64,000 bases of DNA from assembly GCA_022824365.1 (NCBI GenBank), contig JAJEAA010000028.1:310001-374000 (forward strand), in the 5' to 3' direction. The notes under the pieces were generated by a model that was not told the origin of the DNA, did no database searches, and saw only the letters and a program-made list of their open reading frames with translations. Positions 31,175 to 43,782 of this stretch are shown here, piece after piece. The stretch is from Anaerolineae bacterium. Its GTDB lineage: Bacteria; Chloroflexota; Anaerolineae; Aggregatilineales; Phototrophicaceae. Position 1 is the first letter of the stretch. Every line of letters begins with the position of its first letter. The position numbers and the translations under genes were made by a program.

Positions 31175-32578
31175 TCATTTGCGCCGCGATTCCACCTGCC
31201 GCGCGATAAAATGCCGCGCCTCGCTTGTTGAAGCGACTTCGCCAGTCACTTGCGCTTCTCGCAGAGCCTTCAGCAACTTGCCGACCAGCGGTCCCGGATT
31301 TATCTGCAGTTGCTGCTGAATGTCGCGGCCGTTGAGCAACAAGGGTGGATCGACAATTTCGTCGTATCGATGAAAGTAGACATTCAGCAAGTCGGTCGCA
31401 ATCTCGACCTTGTCCAGCCAATCTCGCTGTCGCAATTCATTGCCCTGCGCCGCCAGGTACTCGGCCAAGGCGAGCAGAATCACATCAATGCCGCTTTCCC
31501 GCAGCCCATGCCAGAAGCGATGCTGATCGAGAACCGACCAGCCCTCTCTCTCCGAAAACAGCCCAAGGTTCTTGACGGCTCGCGTTACGTTACGCGCTTC
31601 CTCCGCGCTTAGCTTTAAGGCCGAAACATCGACGTCGTCCCGGTCAGGCAGCAATGCCGCAAGCGCCAGCAATTCGCCGTGGCTGCGAGCGCCGCCGTAT
31701 TCCCGCCCAATATGCGCTTGCAGCGCCGCGCGAAAGCGATCCAACTGGATCGTCAGCATACCCAGGTCGAAAGCGGCCGCCGTATTATCAGTGCGCCCGC
31801 TGCTGATCGCCTTCAATATCGAGACCGTGCGCTCCACAATGGCCAGGCGCCCCGTCCAACCTTCGCTTTCACTTACCCCCACAAATGCCGAACGCGGCAG
31901 TATCTCTTGCAGCAGGCTCAAATGAAGCAGGACGCGCAACCCCCGCGCCGCCCGATCCAAACTCAGGAGCTTGAAAAACTCGTCCCGAATGCGCTCGCCC
32001 GAACACTGACGCAATGCGCCCGCCTGCGCGTGAATGTCAGCTGCCGTATCCGGTTGAATTTTCAAGCGAAACTGCGTACTCAAACGAACAGCCCGCAAGG
32101 CGCGTATCGGATCGTTCTTGATCGCCTCGGCCGAACAGCGTCGCAGGATCTTCTTCTGCAGGTCAGCGCTGCCGCCAAGCGGGTCAATGAGTCGGTCAAT
32201 GTCGCCGAGCAAATCAGTCGCCATCGCATTCATGGTAAAGTCGCGATCGCGCAAGTCCTCATCCAGCGTTGCCCCGCGCAGCCGAGCAAAGTCGACGCAG
32301 ACCCGTTCCCCGCCCCGATTGAGCAAGACGCGCGCCACGCCTCGCTCGCGATCCATGACATAAATGTCAGCATCCAACCAATCGGCCGCCTGCCGCGCCA
32401 AAGCCACCGCATCGCCATCAACAGCGATATCCACATCCGTTATCGCGCCATGCAAATACGCATCGCGCACTGCCCCGCCTACGAGGAAGAGCGGCGTATC
32501 GATTTCTTGATTCTTGAGCAAAGTGGACAAATCTTGGACGAGATTAGACCAGGACAACCGGGGCGCCGCATCATTCAT
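31175..32578 (-). CDS. CCA tRNA nucleotidyltransferase / poly(A) polymerase family
   Basis: A 467-residue class II nucleotidyltransferase that adds or repairs the tRNA CCA end, or polyadenylates RNA. The catalytic head has FLVGGAVRDAYLHG followed by the metal-binding DVDIAVDG (Asp-x-Asp), then DLRDRDFTMNAMA and the RNA-binding DPIRALRAVRLSTQF. The C-terminal half is long and looks like a degenerate HD-type helical domain without a clear HD pair. It is the last gene of the arg-car-hpt operon and overlaps hpt by 8 bp. CCA-adding versus poly(A) activity cannot be decided from sequence alone. Confidence 0.88.
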   Translation of the reverse strand: MNDAAPRLSWSNLVQDLSTLLKNQEIDTPLFLVGGAVRDAYLHGAITDVDIAVDGDAVALARQAADWLDADIYVMDRERGVARVLLNRGGERVCVDFARLRGATLDEDLRDRDFTMNAMATDLLGDIDRLIDPLGGSADLQKKILRRCSAEAIKNDPIRALRAVRLSTQFRLKIQPDTAADIHAQAGALRQCSGERIRDEFFKLLSLDRAARGLRVLLHLSLLQEILPRSAFVGVSESEGWTGRLAIVERTVSILKAISSGRTDNTAAAFDLGMLTIQLDRFRAALQAHIGREYGGARSHGELLALAALLPDRDDVDVSALKLSAEEARNVTRAVKNLGLFSEREGWSVLDQHRFWHGLRESGIDVILLALAEYLAAQGNELRQRDWLDKVEIATDLLNVYFHRYDEIVDPPLLLNGRDIQQQLQINPGPLVGKLLKALREAQVTGEVASTSEARHFIARQVESRRK

Positions 32579-33131
32579 CGGTCAAGGCATCCAGCCGCGC
32601 CACGCCGACGAATGGCAAATTGCGAAAGCGCTCGTCCAGGTCCAACCCATAGCCGAAAACGTATTTGTTCTCGATATCGAAGCCGATGTAATCCACCTCG
32701 ATATCGACTTCGCGCCGGGACTGCTTGTTCAGCAAAGCGCACAATTTCAAGCTGGCCGGCTCACGGTTTTTCAGCGTCTTGATCACGAAGGACAGGGTGT
32801 AGCCGCTATCAATGATGTCTTCGACAACCAGCACATGCTTGCCCTTCACATCCATGCGCAGATCCATATCGATGCGGACGGAGCCCGAGGATTGACGCGC
32901 GCCTGCGCCGTAGCTGCTCGCCGCCATGAAGTCGATCATGTGCGGGACGTGAATATGTCTCGAAAGATCGCTCAAGAACATAACGCCGCCTTTGAGAATG
33001 CAAAGCAATAGCAGATCCTCGCAATCGCTATAATCGCTGCTAATCTGAGCGCCCAATTCCGCTATTCTCGCCTGCAAGCTTGCTTCATTGATGAGGACTT
33101 CACTGAGGTATTTTTCATATGCTTTCATCAT
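32571..33131 (-). CDS. hpt: Hypoxanthine(-guanine) phosphoribosyltransferase
   Basis: A 186-residue type I phosphoribosyltransferase for purine salvage. The PRPP-binding loop is VLVVEDIIDSGYTL, the flexible loop carries the SSYG motif (AASSYGAGARQSSG), and KGGVMFLSDLSRHI is the PPi-binding loop. The C-terminal FVFGYGLD-like VFGYGLDLDERFRNLPFVG matches Hpt rather than other PRTases. It overlaps the downstream nucleotidyltransferase gene by 8 bp and starts 21 bp after carB. Confidence 0.94.
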   Translation of the reverse strand: MMKAYEKYLSEVLINEASLQARIAELGAQISSDYSDCEDLLLLCILKGGVMFLSDLSRHIHVPHMIDFMAASSYGAGARQSSGSVRIDMDLRMDVKGKHVLVVEDIIDSGYTLSFVIKTLKNREPASLKLCALLNKQSRREVDIEVDYIGFDIENKYVFGYGLDLDERFRNLPFVGVARLDALTDE

Positions 33132-33152
33132 GTATCCGTCCTCAATACCTGA

Positions 33153-36100
33153 TCACTCGGCTGCGGCGTAATGCGCCTGCAAACTGCGTACGCTCAGCGG
33201 TTTTTCACTCATCCTTTTGATGCCCTGCACAGTGGCCGCTGCCGCGCTCATCGTCGTCACGATAGGAATCGACAGTGCATAAGCCTTGCTGCGGATTGCA
33301 GCGCCGTCCGCGTGCGCCTGGCTGCCGCGCGGCGTGTTGATGATGAGATCAATCTCGCCTCTGCCCATCGCATCTATGATGTGCGGGCTGCCTTCCGACA
33401 GCTTGTTGATTCTAGCCGCCTCAATCCCCATCCGGTTCAACCAACGCGCCGTGCCATCCGTAGCGACCAATTGGAAGCCTTGCCGGGACAGGTCGCGCGC
33501 GATCTTCGCCACGACCGGCTTATCGAAGTCATTAACACTGATGAAGATAGACCCGCTTTCCGGCAGAGGCGAACCAGCCGACGCCTGCGATTTGACGAAA
33601 GCATGCCCAAAGCTCGACGCATGACCCATAACCTCGCCCGTCGACCGCATCTCTGGTCCCAACCGCGTATCAACGCCGGGGAACTTCTGAAACGGAAAGA
33701 CCGCCTCCTTAATGAAAAAGCCGTCAACCGCTGGCTCTTCCACAAATCCCAACTCGCTCAAGCTCTTGCCGGCTGCGATCTGGGCGGCATAACGCGCCAA
33801 GGGATGCCCGGTCGCCTTGCTGATAAATGGCGCCGTTCGGCTCGCGCGCGGGTTCACCTCCAAAACAAACACTTCATCATCTTTGACCGCGAACTGAATA
33901 TTAAACAGGCCCCTGACGTCTAAAGCCAAGCCGATGCGGCGCGTGTACTCTCGGATGATATCCAGGTGAAAATAACTTATTTTGTACGGTGGCGCCACGC
34001 AAGCCGAATCCCCGCTATGCACTCCCGCTTCTTCAATATGTTGCATGATGCCGCCAATGGTCACCAACTCTCCATCGCAAAGCGCGTCCACATCAACCTC
34101 GTAGGCGTCATCGAGAAATTGATCAATCAATACGGGGTGGCCCCGCCATTCGACATTATCGTCCAGCCAGGCGAGCAATTGCGACTCGTCAAACACGATC
34201 GCCATGCCACGCCCGCCCAGCACATAACTTGGACGAATCAATACCGGATAACCGATGGCCTCGGCAGCGGCGACCGCCTCGGCGCGCGCGCGCGCAGTTG
34301 CGCCGGCCGGCTGCAAGATGTCCAACCTCCGCATCAAGTCGTTGAAACGCTCGCGATCCTCGGCCAAGTCAATTGTATCCACCGATGTGCCCCAGATTGG
34401 CGCGCCCATACGCTCCAGATCATGCGCAATGTTCAGAGGCGTCTGCCCGCCGAATTGCACCAGCACCCCGTCGGGCTGCTCGCGATCGACGATGTTCATA
34501 ACATCTTCGGCCGTCATAGGCTCGAAATAGAGCCGATCCGCCGTGTCATAATCGGTGCTGACCGTTTCCGGATTGCAATTGACCATGATGGTTTCATAAC
34601 CCAGATCCTTCAGCGCGTAACAGGCGTGTACGCAGCAGTAGTCAAATTCGATGCCTTGGCCGATCCGGTTCGGGCCCCCACCGAGAATCATCACCTTCGC
34701 CCGGTCCGTTGGCGCTGCCTCGCACTCCATTTCATAGGTCGAGTACAGGTAGGGTGTCAGCGCTTCGAATTCCGCCGCGCACGTGTCGACGCGATAGAAG
34801 TTTGCTGTCACGCCCCGCGCCTTGCGATACTCGCGTACAGCCAAAGGGTCCTCGCCGACCAGGCGCGCAATGACATTATCGCTGAAGCCGAATTGCTTTA
34901 GCTTCAAAAGATCGCCCGCGTCGAGATCGTGGAGACACAATTCCTTGTCCGTAACCTTGCGATGAATCGTGATGAGATCGCTCATCTGCTGGACGAACCA
35001 AGGATCAAAATGCGTCTGCTCGACGATTTCCCTGAAGTCGACGCCTTCCGCGATGACATCGGCAACCTGAAACAGACGCTGCGCCGTCGGGACACTTAAT
35101 GCTTCCGCTGGCAAGCGCGAGCCAATGTGGTCGCCAAAGCCATCAATACCTATATCAAGCGAGCGCACGCCTTTCTGCAAGGCCTCGGGGAAGGTTCGCC
35201 CCATGGCCATCACCTCGCCAACTGCCTTCATTTGCGGTCCCAATACCGGATCGGCGCCGACAAATTTCTTGAAATCCCAACGCGGTATTTTCACCACAAT
35301 ATAATCCAGCGATGGCTCAAAACTGGCGGGAGTCTTCAAGGTGATATCGTTCGGGATCTCATCCAACGAGAAGCCCACTGCAACCAGCGCCGCGATCTTC
35401 GCGATGGGAAAGCCGGTCGCTTTGCTGGCCAAAGCCGATGAGCGCGAAACCCGCGGATTCATCTCAATGACATAAACTTCGCCATCGTCAGGATTGATGG
35501 CGAATTGCACATTCGCCCCGCCCGTCGTTATGCCTATCCGATCAAATATCATTCGCGACATATTGCGCAGGCGCTGCAACTCTTTGTCAGTCAAGGTTTG
35601 CGCCGGCGCGATCGTAATGCTGTCGCCCGTATGCACACCCATGGGATCAAGATTCTCAATCGAGCAGACGACGACAAAATTGCCACGGCCATCACGCATC
35701 AACTCAAGTTCGTACTCCTTCCAGCCGAGCAAGCTCTTATCCACCAATACTTGCCCGACCGGACTTTGATGCAGCCCATTTGCCGCGACTCGCCGCAGAT
35801 CTTCCTCGTCGTAGGCCACGCCGCCGCCCGCCCCGCCCATCGTGAACGAAGGCCGGATTAGTATCGGATAGCCGATTTGCGCGGCGAACTCAAGCGCGCC
35901 TCCGACGCTATCGACCACTTTGCTATTGGGCACCTTGAGGCCGATTTCCCGCATCGTCTCGTTGAAAAGCTGCCTGTCTTCCGCCAGTTGAATACTGTTC
36001 AAGCTCGCGCCGATCAGTTCGACGCCGTGCCGTTCCAAGACGCCGCATTCTTGTAGTTGCACCGCCAGATTCAGCGCCGTCTGCCCGCCGACCGTAGGCA

Positions 36101-36359
36101 ACAGAGCATCGGGCTTTTCTTCAGCGATGATCTTCTCGCAGATTTCTGCGGTCAAAGGCTCAATGTAGGTCGCGTCAGCGAATTGCGGGTCAGTCATTAT
36201 CGTGGCCGGATTGGAGTTGACCAATACGACGCGGTAACCTTGTCCCCGCAGTGCCTTGCAGGCTTGCACACCGCTATAATCAAACTCGCAGGCTTGGCCA
36301 ATCACGATTGGTCCCGAGCCAATGATCATGATGCTATGGATGTCGCTGCGTTTTGGCAT
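33153..36359 (-). CDS. carB: Carbamoyl-phosphate synthase large subunit
   Basis: A 1068-residue CarB that makes carbamoyl phosphate from bicarbonate, ammonia and two ATP, feeding arginine and pyrimidine synthesis. Both ATP-grasp halves are complete: [20 protein letters not shown] near the start and [20 protein letters not shown] at the second half, each followed by metal-binding [16 protein letters not shown] loops. The C-terminal allosteric (MGS-like) domain ends at [20 protein letters not shown]. Length is normal. It is cotranscribed with carA (24 bp gap) inside the arginine operon. Confidence 0.97.
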
Positions 36360-36383
36360 GGAATGCTTTCACCTGCGAGCCTA

Positions 36384-37517
36384 TCAGATTGTGACCTTCG
36401 CCCGGCCGCGTACTGTGGAGACGAATTCGTCGAAGAGGTAGAAGGAGTCATGCGGGCCCGGTGATGCTTCCGGATGATACTGCACGCTGAATGCCTGCAA
36501 CTGCCGATGACGCAGACCCGCGACCGTATTGTCGTTGAGATTGAGATGCGTTATCTCTCCGCCACCGAGCTCGCTCTCGGCCGAAACAGCGAATCCGTGA
36601 TTGTGCGCGGCAATTTCAACCTCGCCGGTCTCAAGATTCTTCACCGGCTGATTGCCGCCACGATGACCGAACCGCATCTTCTCGGTCCGGCCGCCCAGCG
36701 CCAAGGCCAAAATTTGATGCCCGAGACAGATGCCAAATATCGGCGCCTGCCCCAAAAGACTTTGCACGTTGGCGATAGCGTAATCCACCGCCGCCGGATC
36801 ACCCGGCCCATTACTCAGGAAGACGCCCGCTGGTCTCATGTCCATGATCTCGCCCGCTGGCGTCCAGGCCGGCGCCACCTTGACTCTTAATCCGCGGTCC
36901 GTCATCATCCGCAAGATATTCCGCTTGATTCCGAAATCATAAGCGACGATCAGCGGACGGTCGGCGAATGCCTCCCTGTCGCCGTACCAGTTCGCGTCGC
37001 TGGTCTCATGCCAATCGTAGGCCAGCTTAGCGCTGACCTCATCCACCAGGTTCGCGCCCGACATATCCGGCGCCCCCCGCGCGATAGCCGTCAAACGATC
37101 AGTATCCGCGGCTCCCTCGCCACTGGCAATTGCCGCTTTCATGACGCCCTTCTCACGGATATGCCGCACCAGCGCCCGTGTGGCCACGCCGGCCACGCCG
37201 ACGATGCCTTGCCCTTTCAGATAGCTGGCAAGATCGCCACGACCACGCCAATTGCTGACGATTGGGCTAAGCGCGCGCACGACAAAACCGGTCGCCCACA
37301 CCTTGGCCGACTCGGGATCTTCCAAGTTGACGCCCGTATTGCCAACATGCGGCACGGTCATTGTCACAATCTGCCTGTGATAAGACGGATCCGTGAGAAT
37401 CTCCTGATATCCGGTCATCGACGTATTAAAGACGATCTCGCCGGTTGAAACGCCTTCCGCGCCAAAGCCAAAGCCCGGGAATACCCGACCATCTTCAAGC
37501 ACCAGCGCCGCTTCCAT
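36384..37517 (-). CDS. carA: Carbamoyl-phosphate synthase small subunit
   Basis: A 377-residue CarA that hydrolyses glutamine and channels ammonia to CarB. The N-terminal domain (MEAALVLEDGRVFPGFGFGA) and class I glutaminase are intact; the nucleophile Cys is in PIFGICLGHQILALALGG and the catalytic His/Glu in FSVQYHPEASPGPHD. The ATG at 37517 is chosen over an upstream TTG because GAGGGG lies 6-7 nt before it. It begins 14 bp after argJ and is followed by carB. Confidence 0.96.
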   Translation of the reverse strand: MEAALVLEDGRVFPGFGFGAEGVSTGEIVFNTSMTGYQEILTDPSYHRQIVTMTVPHVGNTGVNLEDPESAKVWATGFVVRALSPIVSNWRGRGDLASYLKGQGIVGVAGVATRALVRHIREKGVMKAAIASGEGAADTDRLTAIARGAPDMSGANLVDEVSAKLAYDWHETSDANWYGDREAFADRPLIVAYDFGIKRNILRMMTDRGLRVKVAPAWTPAGEIMDMRPAGVFLSNGPGDPAAVDYAIANVQSLLGQAPIFGICLGHQILALALGGRTEKMRFGHRGGNQPVKNLETGEVEIAAHNHGFAVSAESELGGGEITHLNLNDNTVAGLRHRQLQAFSVQYHPEASPGPHDSFYLFDEFVSTVRGRAKVTI

Positions 37518-37531
37518 ACTGCGCCCCTCAA

Positions 37532-38761
37532 TCAAGAACGGTAATCGCCATTAATCGAAATATACTCGTGGCTGATGTCACAAGTCCAAATGGTCGCGCA
37601 ACCAGCGCCGATGCCGCAATCCAGCGTGAATGTCATCGAGGGCTGCGCCATGATGGCGGCCGCATCCGCTTCCTCATAGTCTGTCGGCATGCCTCCGCTG
37701 AATATCTTCAGTCCGCCAACCGCGCCTGAAGCCGCCTCGCCGGCCGCCACTGACAAGGACGTTCGATCAGGATCAAAAGCCGTGCCGGCCCGGCCCGCCG
37801 CCGCAACGATCCGGCCCCAATTCGCATCGCTGCCGTAAAACGCCGACTTGGTCAGCACCGAGGCGCCAATCGTCTGCCCGATTCGCTCGGCATCCGCTTC
37901 CGTTGCCGCATTGACGACATCCAGGGTGACAAACTTCGTGACGCCTTCGCCATCGCGCACGACTTCCTGCGCCAGGAATCGGGTCAAGGCGTCCAAGGCG
38001 TTCTGAAACTCGCCCAACTCGTCTCCAGTCGAGAGCGATACGCCGCTCATCCCATTCGACAGCAAGAGCACGGTATCGTTTGTGCTTGTGTCGCCATCGA
38101 CCACAATTCGATTGAAGCTCTGCTGCGCCGATTGCCGCAGGCTGTCTTGAGCGTCAGACACCGTCAATCCCGCATCGGTGACGATCACGCTGAGCATAGT
38201 CGCCATATTCGGCGCGATCATGCCAGCGCCCTTGACAATGCCCGCAATGGTATAGCCTCCATCCGCGGTTTCCACCTTGATGGATCCGAGTTTCGGGCGC
38301 GTGTCAGTCGTCATGATTGCGGCGGCTGTCGCCCGCCAATCCGAACCCAGATTTGCACTGGCCAGCTCAATGCCGCGCGCAATCTTCTCCATTGGCAGAT
38401 GCGTGCCGATGACGCCAGTCGACATAACCAGCACCTGCTCCGCTGCAACACCCGCAGTCGCCGCCACCATCGCCGCCGACGCTCGCGCGTTCTCCAAGCC
38501 GATTGCCCCAGTGCAGGCATTCGCGCTGACGGTGTTTGTCGCGACCGCGCGGATGCCCTCGGAATTACGAGCCAACCGCTCCGTGTCCAGCAGCACCGGC
38601 GCCGCTTTCACCTTGTTGCGCGTGAAAACGCCAGCTGCCGCGCAATCAACCTCGCTGAGCACCAGCGAAAAGTCCAGCGCGCCGTCTTTCTTCAAGCCGG
38701 CGTGGACGCCAGCAACTTGAAAACCGGCGACCGATTCAATCCTTGGGCTAATCTCCGTCAT
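37532..38761 (-). CDS. argJ: Glutamate N-acetyltransferase / amino-acid N-acetyltransferase (ArgJ)
   Basis: A 409-residue ornithine acetyltransferase that recycles the acetyl group from N-acetylornithine to glutamate. The self-processing site is present: KGAGMIAPNMATMLSVIVTD, where cleavage before Thr in MATML produces alpha and beta chains. TTDTRPK and the C-terminal DCGIGAGCATIWTCDISHEY match the family. The ATG at 38761 overlaps the end of argD by 14 bp. With argJ present, the organism uses the cyclic acetyl pathway for ornithine synthesis. Whether it is mono- or bifunctional is not decidable. Confidence 0.96.
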   Translation of the reverse strand: MTEISPRIESVAGFQVAGVHAGLKKDGALDFSLVLSEVDCAAAGVFTRNKVKAAPVLLDTERLARNSEGIRAVATNTVSANACTGAIGLENARASAAMVAATAGVAAEQVLVMSTGVIGTHLPMEKIARGIELASANLGSDWRATAAAIMTTDTRPKLGSIKVETADGGYTIAGIVKGAGMIAPNMATMLSVIVTDAGLTVSDAQDSLRQSAQQSFNRIVVDGDTSTNDTVLLLSNGMSGVSLSTGDELGEFQNALDALTRFLAQEVVRDGEGVTKFVTLDVVNAATEADAERIGQTIGASVLTKSAFYGSDANWGRIVAAAGRAGTAFDPDRTSLSVAAGEAASGAVGGLKIFSGGMPTDYEEADAAAIMAQPSMTFTLDCGIGAGCATIWTCDISHEYISINGDYRS

Positions 38762-39950
38762 CAATATCCTCCAGGATCGCGGTCAGTTTTTCGATTAGCT
38801 CGTCCACATGCTTTTTCTCCACGATCAGCGGCGGCACGAAGCGAATCACATTACTGCCCGAGCTCACCAGCAAAAGACCGTGTTCATAACCCGCATTCAC
38901 AATGCCGGCCGGCGCCACGTCCAGTTCGATGCCCGCTATGAGTCCGCGCCCCCGCACATCCTTGATATGCGGACTATTGATCTCGGATAAGCGCTCAATC
39001 AGATATTCGCCAACTTCCTTGACATGCTCCATAAAGCCCGGGCTCAACACCCGATTGACCACGACTCCCGCCGCCCGCATCACCACCGCGCCGCCGGAAA
39101 ATGTCGAGCCGTGGTCGCCGGGGCTCATCGCGCCCGCCACCTCGTCCGTGGTGAGGATCGCGCCAATCGGCAGGCCGCCAGCCAATGGCTTCGCCAGCGT
39201 CATGATATCCGGCGAAACCCCGGCGAAGCTATGCGCCCAAAGTTCGCCCGTGCGCCCCAAGCCACACTGAATTTCATCGAAGATCAACGTAGCCCCATGT
39301 TCGTCGCATAGTTGTCGCAGCGCTTGCAGGAATTCCGCCGTCGCCACGTTGATGCCGCCTTCGCCTTGAATCGGCTCGATTATCACCGCCACCGTGTCCT
39401 CGTCGATGACTTCTCTTGCGCTTTCCACGCTGTTGAATTCACCCACGACAGCGCCGGGCACCATCGGCTTGAATGGCGCCTGATACTTGTCCTTTGGCGT
39501 GATCGCCAATGCGCCCATCGTTCGTCCGTGAAAGGCTTCAGTAAAACTGACCACCTTCGTCTTATTGAGGTTTTCGTTGACATAGGCCAGTTTCCGCGCG
39601 AACTTCAGCGCGCCCTCGTTCGCCTCAGCGCCGCTATTGCAGAAGTAAGCTTTGTCGGCGAAGGAATTCGTACAAAGCAATTCCGCCAGTTCGACCATCG
39701 CTTGCGTGTGATACAAGCCGCTGACGTGGATCAAGCCGGTGCCCATCTGCATGCCGACTACGTCCATCAGTTCCTTGTCGCCGTAACCCAAGGCGTTGAC
39801 GGCGATGCCAGCCACCCAATCGGTATAAGCTTTGCCATCGGCGTCATAGACGGTGACGCCCTCTCCGCGCGCCAACACGAAATCTGGCCGGGCCGCGACC
39901 GGAACACTGTACTGCTGATCTTTCTGAATCACTTCCGCTGTTATTGACAT
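38748..39950 (-). CDS. argD: Acetylornithine aminotransferase
   Basis: A 400-residue PLP-dependent class III aminotransferase that converts N-acetylglutamate semialdehyde to N-acetylornithine. Conserved segments include FCNSGAEANEGALKFARK, SFTEAFHGRTMGALAITP, LIFDEIQCGLGRTGELWA, and the PLP lysine in TLAKPLAGGLPIGAIL. Length and arrangement are normal. It lies 21 bp after argB and overlaps argJ by 14 bp, consistent with coordinated translation. Confidence 0.95.
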   Translation of the reverse strand: MSITAEVIQKDQQYSVPVAARPDFVLARGEGVTVYDADGKAYTDWVAGIAVNALGYGDKELMDVVGMQMGTGLIHVSGLYHTQAMVELAELLCTNSFADKAYFCNSGAEANEGALKFARKLAYVNENLNKTKVVSFTEAFHGRTMGALAITPKDKYQAPFKPMVPGAVVGEFNSVESAREVIDEDTVAVIIEPIQGEGGINVATAEFLQALRQLCDEHGATLIFDEIQCGLGRTGELWAHSFAGVSPDIMTLAKPLAGGLPIGAILTTDEVAGAMSPGDHGSTFSGGAVVMRAAGVVVNRVLSPGFMEHVKEVGEYLIERLSEINSPHIKDVRGRGLIAGIELDVAPAGIVNAGYEHGLLLVSSGSNVIRFVPPLIVEKKHVDELIEKLTAILEDIDDGD

Positions 39951-39971
39951 GCTTTTCCTCTTGCTTCCCTT

Positions 39972-40718
39972 TCAAACAAATGTTGTGCCGCCATTGCCAT
40001 CCCAACCATCAAGATCCGATATCACTACCTGCTTTGCCCCAGCCGAAAGGACGTCCAAAGCGGTTCTCACTTTTGGTATCATCCCGCCGCTGATTACGCC
40101 AGCGGCAATCAAGTTTTCCGCCTCAGAACGCGTCATCTCTGCGACGCGCTCGCCAGCGACCAGGACACCAGCGACATTCGAAATGAATATCACCTTGTCG
40201 GCCGAAATCGCCGCCGCCAACGCTCCCGTCACGGGATCGGCATTCAGATTGAAATTGCTGCTGGCGCCACCGCCCACGGGCGCAATCACTGGCGTCGCCC
40301 CGAGCGAAAGCAGATCGCAAATCACCTCGCCCCGCACCGACTCCACTTCGCCCGTATAGCCCATGTCCAGCGTGTCGTGCCGCATCTGCCGCGCCCGCAC
40401 CAATCCTCGATCCACGCCCGACAAGCCCGCCGCGTCGACCCCCGCGTTCAAAAGATGGCGCACCAGCCGCTTGTTGACCAAACCACAGAGCGCCATCTCC
40501 ACCAGCGCCAAGGAATCGGCATCGGTCATGCGCAAGCCATCAACATAGCGCGATTCAATCCCAAGTTTCTCCTGCAGCCGCGTAATCTCTTTGCCTCCGC
40601 CATGTACGATGACCAGACGCTCCTCGCTCTCCGCCACGATGCGCGCGAATTTCCGCAGCAAAGCCTCATCATCAAGGCAATGCCCGGAAATCTTGACGAC
40701 GGTTATCTTCTCTCTCAC
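39972..40718 (-). CDS. argB: Acetylglutamate kinase
   Basis: A 248-residue amino-acid kinase that phosphorylates N-acetylglutamate. The substrate and ATP motifs are visible: VVKISGHCLDD at the N-terminus, IVHGGGKEITRLQEKLGI, NLNADPVTGALAAAI and GVISGGMIPKVRTALD. The usual K-x-GG start is KISG here, a conservative variant. The GTG start shares one base with the argC stop (TAGTG), so the two are coupled. The N-terminal extension found in arginine-inhibited hexameric ArgB is absent, hinting at a form that is not feedback-inhibited; that is inference. Confidence 0.93.
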   Translation of the reverse strand: MREKITVVKISGHCLDDEALLRKFARIVAESEERLVIVHGGGKEITRLQEKLGIESRYVDGLRMTDADSLALVEMALCGLVNKRLVRHLLNAGVDAAGLSGVDRGLVRARQMRHDTLDMGYTGEVESVRGEVICDLLSLGATPVIAPVGGGASSNFNLNADPVTGALAAAISADKVIFISNVAGVLVAGERVAEMTRSEAENLIAAGVISGGMIPKVRTALDVLSAGAKQVVISDLDGWDGNGGTTFV

Positions 40719-41719
40719 TAGATTAACCCTAGCGTCTCATCGATGCCAAACATCAAGTTCATGTTCTGCACCGCCTGGCTGGCCGCGCCTTTGCGCAGAT
40801 TGTCCGTAACGCTCGTAATATGAGCGTAGCGCTCCAACACCGGCGTGATGCTGATCACGCACTTGTTAGTCTTGACAGCATGCTTAAGCGTCGCCTGCTC
40901 GCCCAAAGGCAAGACATCCACCAGCGCTTCGCCATCAAACACTTCGGCATAGGCCTCATGCAGCTCATCGCTCGCCATCGAATTCTTGAGCTGTACATAA
41001 ATACTCGCCATCAATCCCCGGTCCACCGGCAGGAGGTGCGGACAAAAGATTACAGGTCCCATACCCTCGTCAAGCTTATGCGCTTCCTGCTCCAACTCAC
41101 CCACATGGCGATGCGAGCGCCCCGTCTTATAGGGAATCAGATTGCCATATACCTCGGCGAAATGCGTCGTTAAAGATGGCTTTCGTCCCGCGCCGGTCAC
41201 ACCCGATTTGGCGTCGACAATGATAGGCGCATCGCGCTCCAGAGCCGAAAATCGCAGCAGCGGATACAAGCCCAGCAAGGTCGTCGTCGGATAACATCCC
41301 GGCGTCGCCACTATATCAGCATGGCGGATCCGCGCGCGATTGATCTCCGGCAAGCCATAAGGCGTCGGCAGCAACTCCGGGTGCGGATGCGGCGTGTCAT
41401 AAGAGCGCTCGTAGGCTTCGGGCGTATCCAAGCGCAGATCCGCTGACAAATCCACCACCTTGATGCCCGCCTCACCGCCCCTCTTGGCCACCTCAGCCGA
41501 AGCCTTGTGGGGCAAAGCGAGGAATATCACAGCGACATCCGCCAGCGAAACTTCGGCGGGCGACACATAGCGCAGGTCCGTTTCCGGCGCCGGTTCGCCA
41601 ACGTAGCTATTGGATGTAGCGAAAACCAAATCGACCTGCGGGTGCCCGGCAAGAATCTCAACCAGATCAAGCCCGGCATAACCGGAACCGCCAAACACGC
41701 CCGCTCGTATTCTTTTCAT
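40718..41719 (-). CDS. argC: N-acetyl-gamma-glutamyl-phosphate reductase
   Basis: A 333-residue NADPH-dependent reductase. The Rossmann start is AGVFGGSGYAGLDLVEIL and the catalytic Cys is in VATPGCYPTTTLLGLYPLL; VPFCPHL-like VIFCPHLLPVDRGLM carries the active-site His. The ATG at 41719 is selected because GGAGGT lies 7 nt upstream; an in-frame extension of seven codons back to a TTG is less likely. It is the first gene of the arginine operon and sits directly behind an attenuator-type terminator (41739-41770) and leader peptide. Confidence 0.96.
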   Translation of the reverse strand: MKRIRAGVFGGSGYAGLDLVEILAGHPQVDLVFATSNSYVGEPAPETDLRYVSPAEVSLADVAVIFLALPHKASAEVAKRGGEAGIKVVDLSADLRLDTPEAYERSYDTPHPHPELLPTPYGLPEINRARIRHADIVATPGCYPTTTLLGLYPLLRFSALERDAPIIVDAKSGVTGAGRKPSLTTHFAEVYGNLIPYKTGRSHRHVGELEQEAHKLDEGMGPVIFCPHLLPVDRGLMASIYVQLKNSMASDELHEAYAEVFDGEALVDVLPLGEQATLKHAVKTNKCVISITPVLERYAHITSVTDNLRKGAASQAVQNMNLMFGIDETLGLI

Positions 41720-41738
41720 CAGCATCACCTCCACCAAC

Positions 41739-41770
41739 AAAAAACCCTGACCGCTTTGTCGAGATCAGGG
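41739..41770 (-). terminator. Rho-independent attenuator terminator in the arg operon leader
   Basis: On the minus strand CCCTGATC (41763-41770) pairs with GGTCAGGG (41745-41752), eight base pairs including one G-U, with a 10-nt loop and six T residues (41739-41744). It ends only 20 bp before the argC ATG and after the promoter at 41918-41946, so it must be read through for the operon to be expressed. Confidence 0.85.
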
Positions 41771-41771
41771 C

Positions 41772-41847
41772 GCATTTACCAGTTTGAGTCAAACGTCATA
41801 TCAGCAACACAAAAATGCCACACTGAACTCGAATCGTGTTAGCCGGC
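41772..41847 (-). promoter_or_regulatory. Mutually exclusive leader hairpins of the arg attenuator
   Basis: Segment 2 of the leader (GTGTGGCATTT, 41823 down to 41813) can pair in two ways. With segment 1, ACAC (41839-41836) and GCC (41847-41845) inside the Arg codons, it forms an early hairpin. With segment 3, AAATGCGCC (41777-41769), it forms an antiterminator of six contiguous pairs (GCATTT/AAATGC) extending into the first bases of the terminator stem. The layout mirrors classical 1:2, 2:3 and 3:4 attenuation. Pairing is read by eye; energies were not computed. Confidence 0.55.
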
Positions 41848-41887
41848 GACGCCTGACTTCCAAGATAGCTGATAAGGCTTGAGACAT
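41801..41887 (-). CDS. Arginine operon leader peptide (28 aa)
   Basis: An ATG at 41887 opens a 28-codon frame ending in TGA at 41801. Residues 11-18 are Val-Arg-Arg-Arg-Arg-Leu-Thr-Arg, so five of seven consecutive codons from residue 12 are arginine, using AGG, CGT, CGC, CGG and CGA. AGGAG lies 12 nt upstream, a somewhat long spacing. The stop codon lies about 10 nt before segment 2 of the competing hairpins, so a ribosome that finishes the peptide would cover segment 2 and favour termination, while one stalled on the Arg codons would free it. The position between the promoter and the attenuator before argC supports a regulatory role. Confidence 0.75.
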   Translation of the reverse strand: MSQALSAILEVRRRRLTRFEFSVAFLCC

Positions 41888-41917
41888 AATTCTATGTTTC
41901 TCCTATGCGACACAGGC

Positions 41918-41946
41918 ATTCTAGATAAAGCGGCGCATTAAGTCAA
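41918..41946 (-). promoter_or_regulatory. Predicted sigma70 promoter of the arginine operon
   Basis: On the minus strand TTGACT (41941-41946) and TAGAAT (41918-41923) are 17 bp apart, each five of six to consensus. Transcription would begin near 41911, giving a leader of about 190 nt with a leader peptide and attenuator. Confidence 0.75.
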
Positions 41947-41963
41947 CTGACCGCCAAGACCTT

Positions 41964-41977
41964 ATGCAAAATTGCAT
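41964..41977. promoter_or_regulatory. Near-perfect palindrome upstream of the arg promoter
   Basis: ATGCAAAATTGCAT has six paired bases on each side of a central AA, about 20 bp upstream of the arg -35 element. It is AT-rich and could be an operator or activator site. It differs from the ArgR (ARG box) consensus, so a regulator cannot be named. Confidence 0.35.
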
Positions 41978-42212
41978 TTTCATTGTGCAATCTATACGAC
42001 GGTTCGCGCCAGATTTATAGCCATGATCGTATACAGTTTAAGCTGTGCCGACTTTCCTCCGCTAACGAGCATCACGTGCTCATTTCGATAGATGACGGCC
42101 TTATCATGATTCATAATGCGGCGATTCACTTGTTTCCACCAAGCAAAATCGAGGGAAATCAAAGCGCTTTGGGAGCGATCTCAGTGGCGCTATATCAATG
42201 TTTGTGAAAAAC
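41978..42212. other. Gap between the arg and sigma factor promoters, no gene recognised
   Basis: Together with the arg leader and the rpoD leader this makes a 737-nt stretch without a long gene. The part between the divergent promoters has only one 74-codon frame (GTG at 41983) with no ribosome-binding site and no family resemblance. A short GAGCA/TGCTC inverted repeat with a central CACGTG lies near 42065. Nothing else is evident. Confidence 0.4.
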
Positions 42213-42477: not shown

Positions 42478-43782
42478 GTGGTAGCAGTTTTGGAAAACGT
42501 AACGGATTTAACCCAGCGAGAAGCAATTCTAAAGCGGTTAACTGAAAAGTCTCGCGTCAACGGTTTCGTCACCTATAGCGACATTCTCGAGTTGCTGCCA
42601 GATGTCGAGGGCGATGTAGATCTGCTCGACGACCTCATGGACAGCTTGCTGGAAGCCGGCATCGAAGTGATTCCAGCGCCCGCGAAAGTCGACGGGGAAG
42701 ACGTTGACGACGCTAAAGACGAGAAGCCGCACACCGATACGTTGTCCGCCGAACCTGCCGAAGACGAGGAAGAAGAGCAAGAGGAGCGCGACGCCCTTCT
42801 CAAGGTCCTCAAGAAAGACCTCACCGCTGATGCCGGCTATCAAGCCGCTCTCGATACCGATGATGTCGTCGGTCTCTATTTGAAGGAAGCCGGCCGCGTC
42901 CCCCTCTTGACTGCCGAAGAAGAGGTGATGCTGGCAAAACGCATGGAAGCCGCGGAATTCGCCCGCGAGCGTTTGGAAGTCGCTGAAACTACGCGTATCG
43001 AAGTTCTGACCTGGAGCGAGGAGCAGGGCTTGCGGGAGACGCTCATGGACGGCGAACGCGCGCAGGAGCATCTCATTCGCGCCAACGCCCGTCTGGTCAT
43101 CAGCGTCGCCAAGAAATATATCGGTCGCGGCGTGCCTTTCCTTGACCTGATTCAGGAAGGCAATATCGGGCTTATCCGCGCCACCAACAAATTCGAATAC
43201 CAGCGCGGACATAAATTCAGCACCTACGCCACCTGGTGGATCCGGCAAGCCGTGAGCCGCGCCGTCGCCGATCAAGGACGAACCATTCGCGTGCCTGTCC
43301 ACATGGGCGATCAGCTAAATCGTATGCGCCGCGTTCAACTGCAATTGCTGCAAGAACTCGGGCGCGAGCCTAAGATTGACGAATTGGCGCACGGCATGGA
43401 TACCACACCGGACAAGGTGGAGAACTTGCTTGAAATCTCCCGCCGGCCGGTAAGCCTGGAAACGCCAATAGATGACGAAGGCGATTCCACATTCGGCGAC
43501 TTCGTCGAAGATAGCAATAGCCCGGCGCCATCGGAAGAAGTGGCCACCCATCTGCTGCATACTCAGTTGCAGCAGGCTCTCGACAAACTGCCCGATCGCG
43601 AGGCGCAAATTCTGCGGCTTCGCTATGGCTTGGCTGATGGCCGGGTCTATACGCTGGAAGAGGTCGGCCAGACAATCGGCGTCACTCGTGAACGCGTGCG
43701 TCAGTTGGAAGCGCAAGCGCTCAACCGCCTGCGCCAATCCTCAGCCCACGTGATTCTCAAGGATTATCTCTACGAAGTATAA
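42478..43782 (+). CDS. rpoD: RNA polymerase sigma factor, primary type (RpoD/SigA)
   Basis: A 434-residue sigma70 factor. An N-terminal region 1.1-like segment is followed by a very acidic linker ([14 protein letters not shown]), region 1.2 ([20 protein letters not shown]), the complete region 2 with the -10-binding helix ([20 protein letters not shown]), region 3 ([20 protein letters not shown]) and region 4 with the -35-binding HTH ([20 protein letters not shown]). Region 2.3/2.4 sequence is that of group 1 or 2 sigmas. The GTG start follows GAAAGG at 7 nt. Whether it is the sole primary sigma cannot be known from one window. Confidence 0.92.

Follow-up and report, generated by a model that had tools for sequence, protein, structure and literature searches.

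A candidate arginine-codon attenuator in the argC leader of an Anaerolineae bacterium and its relatives

This study focused on the control of arginine synthesis in an Anaerolineae bacterium (Chloroflexota), and on the question of whether the short leader in front of its argC gene is a transcription attenuator that responds to arginine. Attenuation by way of a leader peptide has been described for several amino acids, whereas arginine biosynthesis is normally assigned to the repressor ArgR. The stretch of DNA analysed, 64,000 nt in length and referred to here as the window, carries argC on the minus strand (40718..41719, ATG at 41719; over the cut-off of TIGR01850), and this gene is followed on the same strand by argB, argD, argJ, carA, carB, hpt and a CCA-transferase-like gene (31175..40718). 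Since the genes downstream of argC either overlap or are separated by gaps of at most about 25 nt, a single operon that begins with argC and ends with the CCA-transferase-like gene can be inferred. Of the gene names argCBDJ-carAB-hpt-cca given in a first-pass annotation of the same sequence, those from argC to hpt are backed by scores above the curated NCBIfam cut-offs, but for the last gene the best family, CCA tRNA nucleotidyltransferase, scored below its cut-off. A divergent gene for an RpoD-like sigma factor starts at 42478, with scores below the equivalog cut-offs shown. Outside the window, the same genome has a second argC-like gene (L002; G000:C32:387243-388244) that is 35% identical, has a counterpart in all 34 genomes of the genus that were searched, and is possibly a lysine-pathway homologue.

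All features of the leader lie on the minus strand. A sigma-70-like promoter, TTGACT-17-TAGAAT, is found in the sequence at 41918..41946 (-35 at 41946-41941, -10 at 41923-41918), with 10 of 12 positions matching and a spacer of 17 nt. It had been described as a good promoter and can indeed be read in that way, but two such sites were found in 1 kb where 1.4 are expected, so that the promoter by itself is weak evidence; the corresponding regular expression was satisfied at 20 of the 31 genus loci. Further downstream is a leader peptide ORF of 28 codons, MSQALSAILEVRRRRLTRFEFSVAFLCC (41801..41887; ATG at 41887, TGA at 41801). Direct reading of the sequence bears out the earlier description of this upstream ORF (uORF): five arginines fall within seven positions (residues 12-15 and 18), so that the ORF, itself short, carries a cluster of codons specifying the end product of the pathway. 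Four of them are tandem codons, AGG CGT CGC CGG (residues 12-15; 41843..41854), which would be the regulatory ones, and the fifth, CGA (residue 18; 41836-41834), lies past the switch point predicted by ribosome-mask folding.

The uORF is separated from argC, the first structural gene, by an intrinsic terminator (41739..41770), recognised by folding and by covariation of its helix (3:4) in relatives. Its arms, CCCTGATC (41770-41763) and GGTCAGGG (41752-41745), form 8 bp around a 10-nt loop with a predicted energy of -15.1 kcal/mol, and are followed by six U's (TTTTTT, 41744-41739). An 8-bp terminator with six T's had been reported just before argC, and it was found there, 19 nt from the ATG at 41719; the automated terminator scan, whose loop limit of 8 is exceeded here, did not return it. 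The remaining segments provide alternative partners. Segment 1, the Arg-codon region (41834..41858), is predicted to form a helix with 41812-41787 when the RNA is free, and this helix would enclose segment 2 (TCGAGTTCAG, 41823..41832), which lies within the uORF and would be the 5' strand of an antiterminator. Segment 3 (CTGATCTCGA, 41759..41768) can pair either with segment 2 or as part of the 5' arm of the terminator, so that the 2:3 and 3:4 helices are mutually exclusive. The alternative pairings proposed in the first-pass annotation thus exist, but the competitor of the antiterminator is a different one, namely the long helix 41858-41834/41812-41787 that traps segment 2.

A single genome is insufficient to establish such an element. 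When the 300-nt leader was shuffled with its dinucleotides preserved, only 8 of 3000 sequences reached five arginines in seven positions, but 17 short ORFs in the 64-kb window (the leader ORF included) have the same property, and the folding energy of the leader is only modestly better than that of shuffled sequences (z -1.55; 12/200). As far as sequence can tell, the leader becomes convincing through conservation alone, and 144 argC loci were compared for this feature. They consist of 31 loci from the genus (of 32 orthologues, from 34 genomes), 61 from the rest of the order (of 71 matches in 121 order genomes, the ten lowest-scoring being left out), 29 from the rest of the class (mostly the best-scoring of the 65 found beyond the order at an E-value under 1e-50) and 23 from the rest of the phylum (mostly the best-scoring of 86 matches outside the class).

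An automatic test for a terminator with an upstream uORF carrying at least three arginines in seven positions was passed by 120 of the 144 loci; the 24 that failed include some close relatives, and automatic selection picked an incorrect uORF in a few cases (e.g., L098, L105 and L113). In the genus, a uORF with at least three arginines in seven was present at all 31 loci, 74-124 nt before the matched argC start, so the conserved Arg-rich uORF that had been put forward as a check was recovered. At the stricter level of at least four arginines in seven within a short ORF, the counts were 23/31 in the genus (2.8 expected from shuffles), 54/61 in the rest of the order (6.1 expected), 14/29 in the rest of the class (4.1 expected) and 10/23 in the rest of the phylum (2.6 expected). 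Loci that were read as having no leader occur in the order (L120 and L143-L145), elsewhere in the class (L192, L197 and L222) and elsewhere in the phylum (L216-L221 and L223-L232). Codon choice within the run also varies: most families use CGT/CGC, but at three loci of family f29 (L183, L185 and L186) the run is mostly AGG (5/9) and lies in a repeated CCTAGGAGCCCTAGGAGG. A scan for Arg-rich uORFs beyond Chloroflexota covered 66 argC loci, including 62 of 64 non-Chloroflexota loci (L037 and L038 were left out), and gave 13 non-Chloroflexota matches with at least four arginines in seven. Seven of these share tails like one 20-residue sequence, which we take to be that of ribosomal protein S9, and the other six were left aside; no claim of Arg leaders in other phyla is made.

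Most leaders have, within the uORF, a segment that can base-pair with the 5' arm of the terminator, and the two strands change together between groups. Examples are GAGTTCAG/CTGATCTC from the genus itself, GAGGTCAG/CTGACCTC from genera elsewhere in the family, and, from different families, GAGGTTCG/CGAACCTC, GGGTCCGG/CCGGACCC, GGTCTGG/CCAGACC and GTGTCTGG/CCAGACAC. For 77 of 120 leaders, this pairing was equalled by no more than 5 of 100 dinucleotide shuffles of the segment in the uORF. When partners were swapped between 21 families, a test that used 113 of the 144 argC loci, the mean 2:3 pairing score fell from 19.30 (own partner) to 15.41, and none of 30 draws of one locus per family gave a permutation p above 0.0005. 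Within the family, an alignment of 25 leaders gave a covariation score for the 1:2 and 3:4 helices of 0.167, compared to 0.093 after shuffling (reached in 0/500), with 28 doubly changed cells against 11.4. The 2:3 helix showed no covariation within the family (f1), its score being reached by 108/500 shuffles, and its core is nearly invariant. In the genus alignment it is formed in 86.6% of cells, versus 15-57% when the strands are slid against each other, with one position unpaired in 23/29 sequences (U.U in the window) and another in 11/29. The covarying hairpins anticipated earlier are therefore seen for 2:3 between families and for 1:2 and 3:4 within the family, but not for 2:3 within f1, and the mutually exclusive 2:3 and 3:4 helices are kept by covariation in this sense.

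Folding of the leader with a mask in place of the ribosome gave a prediction of how these helices might be switched. With no ribosome on the window leader, 41858-41834 is predicted to pair with 41812-41787, so that segment 2 is trapped, the 2:3 pairing is 0.00 and the terminator forms. Placing the mask on each of the four tandem codons (12-15) in turn is predicted to free segment 2 and raises the 2:3 pairing to 0.95, 0.96, 0.96 and 0.76; it drops to 0.01 at codon 16 and stays near zero until the last codons. The predicted switch thus lies at the four tandem codons, as the attenuation reading would have it, and with the mask on the fifth Arg codon (residue 18) the folding does not favour the antiterminator (0.00). 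The run of five arginines, seen earlier as a unit, is accordingly better divided: residues 12-15 fit the part of regulatory codons, but residue 18 is beyond the switch point in the folding model.

Relatives behave similarly in the same calculation, which used 111 of the 144 argC loci. The mean 2:3 pairing was 0.61 for a ribosome positioned on the Arg codons, 0.07 for one past the run and 0.31 when there was none, and pairing was higher on the Arg codons than after them in 94/111 leaders (96/111 with a larger footprint). Part of this contrast is automatic, since a ribosome that is further on covers segment 2; the informative part, within the folding model, is that the Arg run is placed just before the switch point. 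The drop in pairing came after the last arginine of the 7-residue stretch in 67/111 leaders and before it in 41/111. Some relatives are predicted to favour 2:3 even without a ribosome (e.g., L095, 0.99; L133, 0.96). A ribosome on the stop codon is again predicted to give antitermination (0.96 in the window leader; mean of 0.37 over leaders), and since the mask at this position frees segment 2, termination at high arginine would need prompt release of the ribosome.

From the conservation of the uORF, the covariation and the ribosome-mask folding, all of which support the attenuator interpretation of the first-pass annotation, we consider the element to be a trp/his-type attenuator of transcription, mediated by the ribosome and with arginine as its signal, at a probability of roughly 88%. 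In this model, a ribosome would translate the uORF as RNA polymerase proceeds through the leader. Given an ample supply of charged Arg-tRNA, the ribosome would pass the Arg run and segment 2 would be covered or trapped again; with segment 2 unavailable, segment 3 would pair with segment 4 and transcription would stop before argC. Under Arg-tRNA shortage, it is the ribosome waiting on the Arg codons that would hold open the helix that traps segment 2, which could then pair with segment 3; no terminator would form, and argCBDJ-carAB-hpt-cca would be transcribed.

A covariance model (R1) was built from the 25 family leaders with the window excluded. Searched against the window, its sole match up to an E-value of 10 was the leader (41873-41737; 26.7 bits), and with stricter filters nothing in this genome besides the same leader (E 0.0024) matched at E<=0.1. 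Matches were found in 63 of 121 order genomes, some of them in places other than the known argC orthologues. Ten extra matches were inspected, several weak ones (E above 0.02) being left aside; they include three more argC leaders (L255, L256 and L258) and, in four genomes (G034, G122, G064 and G045), Arg-rich uORFs upstream of argG. Three others (L260-L262) look like chance and were rejected. The regions upstream of 50 argG genes (30 + 20) were then read for at least five arginines in seven together with a terminator. This added seven genomes (L270, L281, L283, L290, L301, L302 and L307), and L279, also positive, is G064 again, so an Arg-rich uORF with a terminator stands upstream of argG in 11 other genomes in total, the terminators having been judged by eye. 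The count excludes three loci with four arginines in seven (L303, L304 and L308) and three loci with no nearby terminator (L275-L277). The latter, from family f3, carry a short ORF rich in arginine (MTIRTRxRRR...) some 155-215 nt ahead of argG, which may represent another type of leader or have no connection with it. No argG leader was found in the genus (L282 and L293-L300, of which L298 is mis-anchored). Within the order, Arg leaders are thus present at two distinct arginine operons, that of argC and that of argG. In Rfam, the window gave no match over the gathering thresholds, and a permissive scan of 501 bases returned only a sub-threshold NsiR1 over the terminator and no T-box match.

A second, possible layer of control is found upstream of the promoter, where the motif TGCACAA-N14-TGCATAA forms a 21-bp repeat (41962..41989, minus strand) and is a candidate transcription-factor site. 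The second copy starts 22 nt before the -35 element. Both copies were detected by regular expression at 19/31 genus loci, compared to 2/620 mononucleotide shuffles. Exactly one exact match to the full motif occurs in each of 20 of the 34 genus genomes, and all 20 lie 245-268 nt before the matched argC start. The tandem motif looks like the putative site of a dedicated regulator, and it could be part of argC control beside the leader. If that regulator bound to TGCACAA/TGCATAA were mainly responsible for control, the contribution of the leader would be minor. The fixed geometry speaks for this, with TGCACAA starting exactly 43 nt ahead of the start of TTGAC at 28/31 genus loci, as do its single-target character and the family loci that have no leader: L120 has both copies 21 nt apart and L144 a variant pair at the same distance, with looser traces in L143 and L145. 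Nevertheless, the two-copy motif was found at only 1 of 90 other leader-carrying loci, the leader being far more widespread, and promoter control leaves the Arg run and the co-varying helices unexplained. As both layers can coexist, promoter control as the main mechanism is judged unlikely. Repression of the operon by ArgR, the usual control of arginine genes elsewhere, is highly improbable and already contradicted by the domain searches. The C-terminal domain of ArgR (PF02863) was present in 72 of 301 phylum genomes, all of them labelled as outside the class, but in 0/34 genus genomes and 0/120 class genomes, by a search that was positive in 8 of 14 named control genomes. Of the 121 order genomes, 11 matched the N-terminal domain (PF01316) at E<=0.001 and six passed its cut-off, all of family f8, in frames of 106-112 aa; two such frames of about 112 aa (L313 and L314) come from this family. 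PF01316 had no match in the genome studied here (G000, about 94% complete), and neither ArgR domain was found to be encoded by it. The first-pass remark that arginine operons are usually controlled by ArgR fits with this, given that PF02863 was not found in the class, and the attenuator has probably replaced ArgR.

The uORF could also act through its peptide. The fungal arginine attenuator peptide is an example of arginine-induced nascent-peptide arrest, and a comparable arrest by free arginine would stall the ribosome near the stop codon when arginine is high. An Arg-rich uORF ahead of an operon for arginine and carbamoyl phosphate would suit such a mechanism, as would the retention of part of the peptide C-terminus in some families (GFLR/GVLR). 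Those conserved C-terminal codons, however, coincide with RNA that pairs in the antiterminator, the peptide outside the Arg run differs greatly between families, and a ribosome at the stop codon is predicted to favour the antiterminator in the window leader, the wrong sign for control by an end product, all of which makes peptide arrest very unlikely. A chance occurrence of an Arg-rich ORF ahead of an ordinary terminator might be suspected from the number of similar ORFs in the window and from the weak fold z-score, but it has a negligible probability, being already contradicted by the conservation, the covariation and the argG leaders. Attenuation at the Arg codons is the reading that we retain.

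Leader-peptide attenuators are classically represented by the trp, his, leu, thr, phe and ilv operons of enterobacteria. The present leader shares with the trp/his type a run of end-product codons in a uORF, competing hairpins, and a terminator before the first biosynthetic gene, but differs in that the signal is arginine, that the phylum is Chloroflexota, and that, in most of the leaders, segment 2 is inside the uORF, upstream of its stop codon. T-boxes bind uncharged tRNA directly. An arginine T-box would resemble the present leader in sensing tRNA charging at the RNA level, although no T-box match was found in the window. The available part of one study mentions T-boxes for arginine, and describes leader-peptide attenuators of amino-acid operons in Actinobacteria but no conserved RNA structure upstream of the arginine operons of that phylum (PMC1262725). 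The nearest arginine case in print that was found is the Salmonella speF leader, as described in the accessible portion of PMC6386406: two consecutive Arg codons in orf34 sense arginine and alter the structure of the leader RNA, replacement of the Arg codons by Lys codons abolishes the response, and the leader acts via Rho-dependent termination, masking of the ribosome-binding site, and RNase G. The likeness to the present case is in the consecutive Arg codons of a bacterial uORF. The differences, as far as that account goes, are that the speF leader controls ornithine decarboxylase and not arginine synthesis (the gene downstream here being argC), that it does not act through an intrinsic terminator/antiterminator, and that its peptide has a conserved domain of its own (PF10940). 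In Pseudomonas aeruginosa, carA has a leader peptide and pyrimidine control by attenuation, with arginine acting transcriptionally (PMC4997734, in part); common to both cases are a leader peptide and suspected attenuation before a gene for carbamoyl-phosphate synthase. Arginine genes such as argC and argG are controlled elsewhere by ArgR/ARG-box repression (PMC3293853, in part), a protein-DNA control, whereas the ArgR C-domain was not found in the present class. The available parts of PMC2965389 and PMC3766115 make no mention of arginine, and that of PMC8632094 describes no leader peptide for arginine synthesis. In this literature, no case of attenuation in arginine biosynthesis was found; the directly relevant survey of Lopatovskaya et al. 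(2010) was outside its scope, and priority is not certain.

Taken more widely, we lean, with some caution, towards the view that Arg-codon attenuation is an old, class-wide form of arginine control in Anaerolineae-type Chloroflexota, which stands in the place of ArgR and covers both argC and argG, and to which the genus has added a single-target promoter site at argC. If true, this would explain how arginine is regulated in a group of mostly uncultured bacteria in which the ArgR C-domain is undetected, and would extend classical attenuation to another amino acid and another phylum. It would also make available a collection of leaders in which the evolution of attenuators can be studied.
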